DNA of 34,134 nt from Myxococcales bacterium (GTDB lineage Bacteria > Myxococcota_A > Polyangia > Polyangiales > Polyangiaceae), in contig JAAZAA010000144.1 in assembly GCA_012514535.1 (NCBI GenBank), positions 1-34,134 on the forward strand. The letters run 5' to 3'. Each line of letters opens with the position of its first letter. Position 1 is the first letter of the stretch. The notes beneath the pieces were generated by a model, which did no database searches, was not told the DNA's origin, and saw only the letters and a list, made by a program, of their open reading frames with translations. A program made the translations under genes and the position numbers. Positions 29,397-34,024 of this stretch are shown piece after piece.

Positions 29397-30047
29397 TCAC
29401 TCGAACAGCGGCGTGCCCGTCGGCGCCGGCGGCGCGTAGGTGGTCATGATCGCGATCTCGTAATAGCGATACTGGTGGTGCTGCGTGTCCCAGTTCGGCG
29501 TCGCCAGCGCCTGCTTCACGCAGTTGGTGGCGCGCCGTGCCTGGGGTCCCTTCCAGCTCCCACTCGCCCCGGGGAACACGTGCATCGAGCGACGGGTGAA
29601 GTCGAGCTGCAGCACGTAGTTGATGGTGCCCCCGCTGGCGGTGCTCGGCGCGCAGTCGATGGTCTGGCGGATCGCCGCGGCGAGCGCGCTCTCGAAGAAG
29701 GGCAGCTGATCACAGAGGACTCCCCGCTGGCTCGCCCCCTTCGGTGACGCCCCGCACTTCACCCGCACCGGGTCCGCCAAGGTGAGTCGATCGTCCTTCG
29801 GAGGTGCCTCGGCCACGGGCACCGTGGGCGCGAACACGCTCGGCGCCGGCTCCGCCTCGGGCACCTCCACCGCAGGGCGCCGCAGGAGATAGAGCGGCAC
29901 GGCCAACAGGATGAGCACCGCGACCAGGGCCACCACGACCTGCGCCCGGATCGGCCGATCGCCGGCGCTGCTCCCCCCGACTCCGAGGCGACGCAGGCTG
30001 GGCTCGCTCGGTGCAGACGGGAAGGAGGGACGGGGGGGACCAGGCAT
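29397..30047 (-). CDS. Single-pass membrane protein, AgmX/PglI C-terminal-like
   Basis: The 216-residue product has a Pro/Ser-rich cytoplasmic start, one membrane helix (35-55), a Pro/Ala linker and a periplasmic domain (about 95-210) with three Cys. The pattern NYVLQLDFTRRSMHVF followed by RRATNCVKQALA and a final strand EIAIMTTY resembles the small C-terminal domain shared by AgmX/PglI-type myxobacterial proteins; this is moderate. AgmX acts in gliding motility in Myxococcus. It lies 18 bases downstream of the kinase-FHA-GGDEF gene on the same strand, so the two are probably one operon, and the kinase could phosphorylate its Ser/Thr-rich cytoplasmic lead. Confidence 0.75.
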   Translation of the reverse strand: MPGPPRPSFPSAPSEPSLRRLGVGGSSAGDRPIRAQVVVALVAVLILLAVPLYLLRRPAVEVPEAEPAPSVFAPTVPVAEAPPKDDRLTLADPVRVKCGASPKGASQRGVLCDQLPFFESALAAAIRQTIDCAPSTASGGTINYVLQLDFTRRSMHVFPGASGSWKGPQARRATNCVKQALATPNWDTQHHQYRYYEIAIMTTYAPPAPTGTPLFE

Positions 30048-30065
30048 CAGGACTACGCGGAGAGA

Positions 30066-31757
30066 TCAGAAATCGAGCAGAGATTCGACGGGTTCGCTCG
30101 GATCTGCGCGGACGACGGAGGCGACCAGATCGAGGGAGTCGGGCATCAACCCCTGCACCTGGGCCACCACCTGCTCGACCACGTGGCGCGCCTCCTCGAT
30201 GCCGGGACCCGTCATGCCCACCGCGAACTTCAGGCTGCCAGAGCGACCGGCCGTGGCTGGAACCATGCTGATCATCATCATCTCGGTGAGCTCCACCACG
30301 CGCTGAGCGACCCGCCGCAGGGCGAGCATCTCGAGGATCGTCGGGCGATCGCTCACGTGACGGTTGGGCCCGCGGATGTGGTAGCGAGCCACCGAGAGCG
30401 GTGTACCGGTCCATTTGGCGAAGGCAAGCTCTTCGCGGAAGGATTTGAGGAGCTGCTCCCGATGAAGCAACCCCGTGAGGCCATCGTGACGAGCCAGGTA
30501 GGCCTGGGCGCGCTCGTCGTGCGGCGACTTCGCCCCGAAGCTGACTAGCTTCACCCGGCACTCGCCGAGCTGCGCTTCGCCTCCGTGCAGCAAGCTGAAG
30601 GTCTTCTTGCGTTCGTAGCTGTGGTCCGCGTAGGTGCCGTTGGTGCTCCCGACGTCCTCGACGGCCCACGTCCCCGCCTGCCATTTGACGATGGCGTGGG
30701 CGCCGGAGACCGTCGCCTCCGGCAGGACGATGTCTTGATCGGTGCGACGCCCCACGCGCAACGACGGCCGCGTGAGCGGGAAGATCTTCCCCACGGACTC
30801 CGTCGCGTTGGTGCAGTACGTCACCAGCAGGTACTGGGCCCCCGGCTGGAACGACTCCGTCGCCAGGCGCCCGAGGGGCGGCCCCGGCGCGAGGCGCTCC
30901 CGCGGGATCTGCTGGCTCGTCGTGAGCTGGACGGGATTGAAGAAGCGCAGACGCCGCGCCGGCAGACGCATCTCGGCGTCGTCGCTCAAGCACCGGAATA
31001 CCTGCTTGATCTCGTCGACCGAGAGCCCCGCGGGAACGTCGAACATGATCTGGGAGCGCATGGGCTTCGCCCGAGGTTTGTATCCGGGCTCCGGAACGCG
31101 GCACGTCCACATCTCCCAGAGCGTGAGGCCGAGCGCGTACAGATCGTCCTCGGGGCTCGCGCCGCCGGAGCGGAGGCGCTCGGGCGCCATGTAGTTCGGG
31201 GTGCCGCCATCGGGGGGCGCGCCCGGCCGTCGCGCGCTCAGGCGTGCGCGCTCCTGGGCGAAGCCGAAGTCGAGGATCACCGCGCGATCCTTCGTGACCA
31301 TCACGTTGCCCGGCTTCAGGTCGCCGTGCACGAGCCCTTGGGCATGGATGGCGGCGAGCCCCGCGCAGGTCTCGCTCGCGATCTTCCGGAACTCGTCGGC
31401 GGTGTAGCCCCCCTGAGCCTTGCGACGGCGGATGTGCGTGTGCAGCGTCTGCCCGTTGATGTGCTCCATCACGAGGATCGGGCCCCAGGGGCTCGGAGCG
31501 AGATCGTGGACCCGGCACACGTTGGGATGACTCACGGATCGCGCGAGGAGGAGCTCCTGCCGCAACGCCTCGTCATCACCGGGCATTCGGGACTCCTCAC
31601 GGACCACTTTCAGCGCGACGGGCTCCTGGGTGCTCCGGTCGTAGGCCAGGAACACTTCGCCCATGCCGCCCTTGCCCAAGCTCTGCCGGATCTCGTACCG
31701 GTCGTTCACGAGGGTGCCGGCGGCCAGCGGGGGTACGTTTCGGGGAGACTGCGGCAT
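30066..31757 (-). CDS. Ser/Thr kinase - FHA - degenerate GGDEF fusion protein
   Basis: The 563-residue protein joins three signalling modules. Kinase domain (about 20-270): GKGGMGEVF (28-36), Lys50, catalytic loop HGDLKPGN (Asp146; Arg of HRD is Gly145), DFG Asp163, GTPNYMAPE. FHA domain (about 330-400): LRVGRRTDQDIVL, SGAHAIVKW and GSTNGTY match phosphothreonine-binding residues. GGDEF-like domain (about 418-540): the hallmark opening DGLTGLLHREQLL is present, but the GG(D/E)EF motif is replaced near 503-511 by AGRSGSLKF. Diguanylate cyclase activity is thus unlikely. No membrane segment. It may bind nucleotide or act as a scaffold. It heads an operon with the AgmX-like gene. Confidence 0.93.
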   Translation of the reverse strand: MPQSPRNVPPLAAGTLVNDRYEIRQSLGKGGMGEVFLAYDRSTQEPVALKVVREESRMPGDDEALRQELLLARSVSHPNVCRVHDLAPSPWGPILVMEHINGQTLHTHIRRRKAQGGYTADEFRKIASETCAGLAAIHAQGLVHGDLKPGNVMVTKDRAVILDFGFAQERARLSARRPGAPPDGGTPNYMAPERLRSGGASPEDDLYALGLTLWEMWTCRVPEPGYKPRAKPMRSQIMFDVPAGLSVDEIKQVFRCLSDDAEMRLPARRLRFFNPVQLTTSQQIPRERLAPGPPLGRLATESFQPGAQYLLVTYCTNATESVGKIFPLTRPSLRVGRRTDQDIVLPEATVSGAHAIVKWQAGTWAVEDVGSTNGTYADHSYERKKTFSLLHGGEAQLGECRVKLVSFGAKSPHDERAQAYLARHDGLTGLLHREQLLKSFREELAFAKWTGTPLSVARYHIRGPNRHVSDRPTILEMLALRRVAQRVVELTEMMMISMVPATAGRSGSLKFAVGMTGPGIEEARHVVEQVVAQVQGLMPDSLDLVASVVRADPSEPVESLLDF

Positions 31758-32125: not shown

Positions 32126-34024
32126 TCAAGAAGCAACCTCGACATCGCAGTGAGCGGCGATCCGACACCCCTCCTCGGCCAGCAACCAGGTTTCGAGCCA
32201 AGGGAGGCCTCCCCGGCCCAGCGCTCCGCGCCCGAGCAGGGATTCGATCCATCCCACGGCCACCCCCGCTCCGGACAAGCCCCGCCCTGACAACCCCATC
32301 CAAGAGAGGCCCATCCAAGAAAGACCCATCCAAGAACGACCCATCCAAGAACGACCCATCCAAGAACGACCCAGCGCGCCGAGCACCGCGCCGCCCCAGG
32401 GCACCCCCTGGAGGAGCCTCGGCTCCAGCTCCGCTCCCCGCTCCACCAGGGCACGCGCCTCCTCCAGCGCGTCTCGGAAGCCGCCGAGCCGATCGATGAG
32501 TCCCTCCCGGAGCGCCGCGCGCCCCGACCAGACGCGGCCCTCGGCCACCCGTCGGATCTCCTCGTCCCCACGGCCCCGCCCCTCCGCCACCACACGGATG
32601 AAGTCGTCGTAGACGAGCTCGAGCTCCCGCTCGAACGCCTCCCGCTCGTCGAGGCGCAAGGCCCTCGCTGGAGAGAACATGTCCACGCGCTCCCCCCGCC
32701 GGATCGTCTCGAGGTGCACCCCCAGCCGCTTGAGCAGCTCGCCCGCGACGGGCTTGGCGGCGACGACGCCGATCGAACCCGTCAGGGTGACGGGCTGAGC
32801 CACGATGCGCTGCGCGCCCACGCCGATCATGTAGCCGCCGCTCGCGGCGACGTCGCAGAAGTAGGCCACCACCGGCTTCACGGCGCGGACCTGTCGCACC
32901 GCTCGTAGGATGCGAGCCGATGCCAACGCGCTGCCTCCCCGCGAGTCCACGTGGAGCAGGACGGCACGAGCTCGAGGATCCTTGCGGGCCCGCTCGAGCG
33001 CGTGCACCAGAGGGCGCTCCGCAGCGACGACCACCCCGGGGCGAGCCTCGGAGACGATGGCGCCGTGCACGTCGATCACGGCGACGTAGTCGCGAGGCCG
33101 CCAGGAGACGAACCGAACTCGGCGGCGGCGCGCGTAGGTCCCGATGCCGACGGGCTCCGTCCGCGTGGGGACCCGGTGTCCACGCGCCCTCCCCGCGGGC
33201 GGCGCGTCTCCCGGCGCTCGGGGCTCCGGCGGTACCCCCGGCCAGGCGAGGAGCCGCTCCGTGAGCTCCTGGTCGGTCACGAGCGCGTCCACGATACCGC
33301 GCTCCAAAGCGTCCCGCGCCGCGCAGGGGCTCTGCTCGATCCACTCCAGCACCCGCTCGCGCTCGACACGGCGTCCCGCGCAGAGGGCCGCCACCCCGTC
33401 TTCGAAGAGGTCGTCGAGGAGCTCGCCGAGCTGCTGTCGCTGCGGCTCACTCATGGTGGCGCGGGCCAGGTTCTCCGCGGCGGTCTTGTAGCGCCCCCGC
33501 GCGTACACCTCCGCCTCGACGCCGACCCGATCGAGGGCGTCCTTGACGTAGGGCACCGACGCCGCGACGCCCAGGGGCGCGATGGACGCCGCAGGGTCCA
33601 TCCACAGCGCGTCCGCGCAGGCGGCCAGTGTGAGCTCTCGAAGAGAGGCGCCCTGGGGCAGATGGACGATCACGTGCTTGCCCTGGGCCCGCAGCCCCTC
33701 GAGCAGCTCTCGCAGCGAGCGGAGCCGCGCCGCTCCACCCCCCACCGACGCCAGGGTCACCAGCAGCCCCCGCGCCCGCTCGTCGGTCGCGAGATCATCG
33801 AGCACCTCCGCGAGCCGATGGAGGTTCAGCTCCTGCTTCTGCCCGCGGGACTTCAGGAGCTCCGTCCAGTGTTTGCGGGGCCGCGGCAGATCGAGCAGCG
33901 GTCCGTCGACGCGCAGGTGCACCCACCCCGTCCGCCCCACCGCACGACGTCGCCGCCAGTGCCGCAACGGGAAGAACAGCAACAAGAAGGTGTTCACCAC
34001 CAGCGCGAAGATGAGCCGCAGCAC
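32126..34024 (-). CDS. sppA: Signal peptide peptidase SppA, tandem S49 type
   Basis: SppA degrades leftover signal peptides at the inner membrane. I choose GTG 34024 (632 residues) since it puts the membrane anchor (3-20, LRLIFALVVNTFLLLFFP) at the N-terminus. A longer frame to 34117 begins inside a 14-bp tandem repeat. Two S49 domains follow. The catalytic Lys180 lies in GRYKTAAENL (E. coli Lys209) and Ser395 in VAASGGYMIG (E. coli Ser409), both intact, with the TLTGSIGV strand after it. Length and order match the 67K-type enzyme. After the second domain a tail of about 45 residues carries (R/L)SWMG repeats not known to me in SppA. Confidence 0.95.
   Translation of the reverse strand: MLRLIFALVVNTFLLLFFPLRHWRRRRAVGRTGWVHLRVDGPLLDLPRPRKHWTELLKSRGQKQELNLHRLAEVLDDLATDERARGLLVTLASVGGGAARLRSLRELLEGLRAQGKHVIVHLPQGASLRELTLAACADALWMDPAASIAPLGVAASVPYVKDALDRVGVEAEVYARGRYKTAAENLARATMSEPQRQQLGELLDDLFEDGVAALCAGRRVERERVLEWIEQSPCAARDALERGIVDALVTDQELTERLLAWPGVPPEPRAPGDAPPAGRARGHRVPTRTEPVGIGTYARRRRVRFVSWRPRDYVAVIDVHGAIVSEARPGVVVAAERPLVHALERARKDPRARAVLLHVDSRGGSALASARILRAVRQVRAVKPVVAYFCDVAASGGYMIGVGAQRIVAQPVTLTGSIGVVAAKPVAGELLKRLGVHLETIRRGERVDMFSPARALRLDEREAFERELELVYDDFIRVVAEGRGRGDEEIRRVAEGRVWSGRAALREGLIDRLGGFRDALEEARALVERGAELEPRLLQGVPWGGAVLGALGRSWMGRSWMGRSWMGLSWMGLSWMGLSGRGLSGAGVAVGWIESLLGRGALGRGGLPWLETWLLAEEGCRIAAHCDVEVAS
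32295..32369 (-). repeat. 15-bp tandem repeat, 5 copies, in sppA 3' end
   Basis: Units of CCCATCCAAGAACGA type at 32295, 32310, 32325, 32340 and 32355; the last three are identical, the first two diverge by one to three bases. In frame, it encodes (R/L)SWMG repeats at the C-terminus of SppA. Confidence 0.97.

Follow-up and report, generated by a model that had tools for sequence, protein, structure and literature searches.

Introduction

Fusions of FHA domains to Ser/Thr kinases have been known for a long time (PMC1262709). In DgcB (Bd0742) of Bdellovibrio bacteriovorus (PDB 6hbz), an FHA domain leads directly into an active GGDEF domain with an I-site, and the protein is activated when its own FHA domain takes up its own phosphorylated tail (PMC6733907). 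DgcB carries no kinase. Meek et al. (2019) pointed to a 974-aa protein of Sorangium cellulosum, BE21_29150, in which a kinase, a tail, an FHA domain and a GGDEF domain follow one another, as a hint that a kinase acting on DgcB exists (PMC6733907). In GarA and OdhI, the phospho-Thr motif sits in an N-terminal tail before the FHA domain, and neither a kinase nor a GGDEF domain is fused to it.

Here we describe P1, a kinase-FHA-pseudoGGDEF protein, and P2, the single-pass membrane protein encoded beside it, from a Myxococcales bacterium (assembly GCA_012514535.1) of the GTDB family Polyangiaceae. Both genes lie on contig JAAZAA010000144.1, of which positions 1 to 34,134 were analysed and are called the window below. 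P1 resembles DgcB in having an FHA domain with an intact pThr pocket followed directly by a GGDEF fold with a D-x-LT turn, but a kinase is fused to it and its GGDEF domain appears dead. The domain order as such is already known from the one Sorangium protein, which comes from the same bacterial family (PMC6733907). P1 would be a clean example, provided by nature, of an enzyme for a second messenger that became joined to a kinase, lost its activity early and has since been maintained by selection in almost every Polyangiaceae genome. The conserved combination of kinase, FHA domain and dead GGDEF domain, with P2 as its usual neighbour, is more suggestive of a specialised phosphorylation switch at the envelope than of an enzyme that makes c-di-GMP.

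Results

The gene for P1 occupies positions 30066..31757 of the minus strand and encodes 563 aa from an ATG start. The gene for P2 (29397..30047, minus strand, 216 aa) lies downstream, with exactly 18 nt between the P1 stop and the P2 start, and both reading frames and the gap between them are where the original prediction, made from the DNA letters, had put them. A scan for sigma-70 promoters found nothing. Upstream of P1 is a gene for an SppA-like S49 peptidase, and a 15-bp repeat that occurs five times at positions 32295-32373 of the window (95% matches) gives this peptidase RSWMG/LSWMG repeats close to its C-terminus.

Residues 21-272 of P1 (30942..31697, minus strand) form a Ser/Thr kinase domain (Pfam Pkinase, 1.9e-43) with GKGGMG, HGDLKPGN, DFG and APE motifs. 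The kinase core had been described as intact-looking, and across 57 aligned sequences the residues that define a Hanks-type Ser/Thr kinase are indeed invariant: the VAIK Lys (K50), the alpha-C Glu (E68), the Asp of HxD (D146), N151, D163 of DFG, P192-E193 of APE and the distal Arg (R264). Judged by these residues, the kinase is probably active. Its closest solved relatives are structures of PknB. Unlike PknB-type kinases, P1 has no transmembrane helix and no PASTA domain, it is non-RD, with HGD instead of HRD in all 57 sequences, and its activation loop has no phosphorylatable Thr: none precedes the P+1 residue T186, and S174 is present in just 61 of 75 sequences. The signs of an RD kinase with activation-loop phosphorylation are therefore missing. 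Non-RD kinases do not as a rule need loop phosphorylation, and the HGD motif together with the Thr-less loop indicates that P1 is probably not switched in this way.

A linker (residues 273-312; 30822..30941, minus strand) joins the kinase to the FHA domain. It is poorly predicted by AlphaFold, with pLDDT below 50 at residues 278-282, and contains a candidate phospho-site, TT[SN], in which T279 is invariant (75/75) and T280 is found in 65 of 75 sequences. In placing a nearly invariant Thr motif before its FHA domain, P1 recalls the TTS of GarA and OdhI and the tail of DgcB, but it does not match the consensus around their motif. The consensus of DgcB, GarA and OdhI asks for hydrophobic residues at -3, +2 and +3, Glu at -2 and Ser at +1; in the TT[SN][PQ]Q of P1, Ser or Asn does follow the Thr pair, and the other positions misfit, including +2 and +3. 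Since the invariant T279 sits between kinase and FHA domain, it may be bound in cis by the P1 FHA domain, as the original prediction supposed for autophosphorylation; we treat this as a possibility only, because the linker fails the hydrophobic +2/+3 rule. Given the misfit to the consensus, T279 may instead be conserved for other reasons.

The FHA domain itself (residues 313-404, Pfam core 334-380; 30546..30821, minus strand; Pfam FHA, 3.1e-12) looks functional. As had been noticed at the outset, it has the phosphothreonine-binding motifs, and GR (G336-R337), SxxH (S351/H354) and NG (N373-G374) are invariant in the 57 aligned sequences.

The C-terminal stretch (residues 405-563; 30069..30545, minus strand) is recognised by no Pfam model, with only one match, at E 0.059, among 39 relatives, and searching it by sequence against the PDB gave nothing significant. 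Comparison of a profile of the 39 relatives with 13 GGDEF domains of the same genome by hhalign gave 96% probability (E 1.6e-9 in one comparison), where unrelated comparisons run as controls gave 0.2-0.8%. The register of these alignments was consistent, also when repeated with 75 relatives, and places DGLTGL (residues 425-430; 30468..30485, minus strand), the retained D-x-LT wide-turn motif, on DxLTGL, and GSLKF (residues 507-511; 30225..30239, minus strand) on G-G-E-E-F. AlphaFold (AF2) models the isolated domain with pLDDT 90, and equally well in the full chain, and in the model a beta-hairpin (502-507/510-516) lies at the signature position. Most of the 50 Foldseek matches listed for the model carry GGDEF protein or diguanylate cyclase in their titles, and Bdellovibrio DgcB is one of the matches; the remaining ones listed (e.g. 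3bre, PA3702) we take to be GGDEF proteins too. VIA-align gave Z values up to 15.2 over 152 residues. On these predictions, the C-terminal domain of P1 has a GGDEF fold, in keeping with the GGDEF-type opening DGLTGLLHRE from which such a fold had been proposed for residues 415-545.

The active-site motif had been reported lost, and it is lost throughout the family. The GG[DE]EF signature is missing from all 75 aligned relatives, whose consensus is GPL[KR]F; residue 509 is Leu in every one, and residue 510 is Lys or Arg in 73 of 75. Position 460, which in cyclases is a metal-binding Asp, is Glu in 57 (E460) and His in 14 of the 75, and it is aromatic in the sister family, whose members also have no GGDEF motif. 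GHxxGD is absent from the tail in the 75 aligned sequences, and the alignments contain no RxxD I-site five residues before the hairpin motif. The tail accordingly has the features neither of an active diguanylate cyclase nor of an I-site c-di-GMP receptor, and with signature, GHxxGD and I-site all gone, cyclase activity is very unlikely. Of the "cyclic-nucleotide-like module" in the original prediction, the GGDEF fold stands; the nucleotide side is weakened, since the motifs for catalysis, for substrate binding and of the I-site are all missing, and what remains for the pseudo-GGDEF domain is mainly a part in structure or docking.

Mean pairwise identity is 84% for the kinase, 67% for the tail and 64% for the FHA domain, and rough Nei-Gojobori estimates of dN/dS are 0.17 for the kinase, a median of about 0.35 for the tail and 0.44 for the FHA domain, placing the tail under purifying selection. 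Because the tail is conserved like the FHA domain despite its lost motifs, it appears to be kept for another role; most simply, its enzymatic activity would have been lost before the family began to diversify. As to its origin, of 15 weak outer matches that the tail profile gave, 10 join an FHA domain to a GGDEF domain whose signature is intact, compared with 5 of 15 for the GGDEF genes of the same genome. This excess hints at a DgcB-like ancestor that became joined to a kinase.

P1 occurs in almost all Polyangiaceae: orthologues, detected by the tail, occur in 104 of the 108 genomes of this GTDB family, including Sorangium, Polyangium, Labilithrix and Byssovorax. One sister family has the tail too, in five genomes, and a sample of 377 genomes of the phylum yielded no further family with the P1 architecture. 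Some genomes, Sorangium among them, have a second copy of P1.

P2 had been described as a single-pass protein resembling AgmX/PglI. The topology is supported by a hydropathy peak of 1.9-3.2 in each of 69 orthologues (69/69), which predicts one transmembrane helix per protein; in P2 it spans residues 37-55 (29883..29939, minus strand) and has a conserved VAVPLYLWRRP end. Before it lies a short, Ser-rich cytoplasmic tail (PSEPxxRRLG) that is conserved, drifts in sequence in more distant members, and contains Ser only, with no Thr for an FHA domain to read. The C-terminal domain (residues 88-216; 29400..29786, minus strand), with invariant C98, C112, C132, H191 and Y196, is probably periplasmic. 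In a divergent family of P2-like proteins, the C-terminus holds a bacterial SH3 domain (SH3b), which fits an outward-facing P2 domain.

The proposed likeness to AgmX/PglI did not survive. AgmX/PglI C-terminal domain proteins (NF033768) share with P2 an envelope location and a small Cys-containing C-terminal domain, but there is no significant sequence relation: none of 29 P2 relatives matched NF033768 in an NCBIfam scan, and two hhalign profile comparisons gave 0.5-1%, against the 96% of the GGDEF comparison. A search of the same genome with NF033768 found 14 other places, P2 not among them. For P2 itself, neither NCBIfam nor the PDB gave a significant family, and Pfam gave none that is credible. 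P2, by sequence, is an undescribed family, now defined, of putative envelope partners.

The original prediction would have been refuted by the lack of a GGDEF fold in residues 415-545 or of any relative that keeps the gene pair; the fold is predicted, and the pairing is conserved. Of 80 P1 loci, two are cut by contig ends, and P2 lies directly downstream of P1 on the same strand in 69 of the 78 that are testable; at one further locus it is just downstream but convergent, and at another it is about 9 kb away. The other neighbours of P1 vary across genera (the neighbour clustering output used here covers 3722 of 3805 queries). Strong P2 matches are found in the same two families as P1, with weaker matches in a third. 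The pairing is not obligate, which speaks against P1 and P2 as one system: the genes are unlinked in the sister family, the second P1 copies inspected have no P2, and in some genomes only P1 or only P2 occurs.

Discussion

We propose that P1 is a lineage-specific soluble Ser/Thr kinase with a DgcB-like FHA-GGDEF unit behind its kinase domain, and that cyclase activity was lost ahead of the family's radiation. The kinase would be active without activation-loop phosphorylation, and the FHA domain would bind phospho-Thr, whether of its own linker (T279/T280) in cis or of a partner protein. The pseudo-GGDEF domain may then act as a surface for dimerisation and docking through which the state of the FHA domain, occupied or empty, is passed to the kinase or to a client. 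P2 is the best candidate for this client, or for an anchor, and would tie the switch to the envelope, as the original prediction also supposed. We hold this kinase-scaffold account tentatively, with a likelihood close to but short of even. A self-contained form of it, in which the linker is autophosphorylated and then clamped by the FHA domain, and the retired cyclase domain converts the clamp into docking of the envelope protein, is unlikely; were it true, a c-di-GMP enzyme would have been turned into a pure kinase scaffold and fixed in a whole bacterial family.

Three other accounts bear on these roles. P1 may be an ordinary FHA-kinase, of the long-known type (PMC1262709), that recruits in trans substrates phosphorylated by itself or by other kinases, with a pseudo-GGDEF domain that only dimerises and P2 as nothing but a co-transcribed envelope protein. 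The Thr-less cytosolic part of P2 and the non-obligate pairing of the genes agree with this, but adjacency in most loci across genera whose other neighbours have changed, along with the distribution shared over two families, does not, and we consider the trans account somewhat unlikely. A role in nucleotide binding would put the kinase under allosteric control by a second messenger, the pseudo-GGDEF domain being a receptor for c-di-GMP or another nucleotide. Degenerate GGDEF domains can act as nucleotide effectors, BcsE being one example, and the fold and the Glu that most relatives have in place of the metal Asp are compatible with such a receptor; however, the I-site and GHxxGD are gone, the hairpin has no acidic residue, and position 460 is not conserved, which makes a receptor quite improbable. 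Least probable of the accounts considered here is inside-out signalling, in which P1 phosphorylates Ser in the cytoplasmic tail of P2 to control a periplasmic P2 activity and the FHA domain is only autoregulatory. The conserved Ser-rich tail, the single helix, the Cys-containing outer domain and the SH3b domains of P2-like proteins are what such a system might look like, but the drift of the tail in more distant members argues against it.

The loss of the cyclase motifs also bears on BE21_29150, which is probably a member of the P1 family, given its domain order and host. At 974 aa it is longer than the open frames of the Sorangium P1 members inspected here (620-798 aa), and the part of PMC6733907 that deals with it is silent on the GGDEF degeneracy seen in P1. 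If it does belong to the P1 family, it does not synthesise c-di-GMP, and the meaning of the comparison drawn by Meek et al., that of kinase control over DgcB, changes.

Other GGDEF frames, and further copies and relatives of P1 and P2

A 975-aa GGDEF frame of Sorangium was considered as a possible match to the 974-aa protein of Meek et al., but it has GAF-like regions, and no kinase or FHA domain was seen in it. Pfam detects GGDEF genes in two Sorangium genomes; in one of them the four longer frames were inspected as well, and none is an intact kinase-FHA-GGDEF protein. At one Sorangium locus (L248; G020 C3:1460909-1461319), a separate kinase runs straight into a degenerate GGDEF-like domain, with no FHA domain, and a second Sorangium genome has a match of similar range. 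Four further loci (L098, L101, L102 and L103) belong to the P1 family as second copies or as divergent members, and none has a P2 gene next to it.

One genome (G016) has three unlinked P2-like genes (L111 on C31, L115 on C98 and L116 on C18), and its own P1 gene (L080) has no adjacent P2. In the genome of the window, a P2-like protein with an SH3_3 domain is encoded elsewhere (L265:5890-6768, contig C191), and similar proteins occur in other Polyangiaceae. One same-strand ORF, for a DNA adenine methylase-like protein, separates its gene from that of a kinase-GAF-sigma54 activator; its neighbour in the other direction is a DUF4340 gene.
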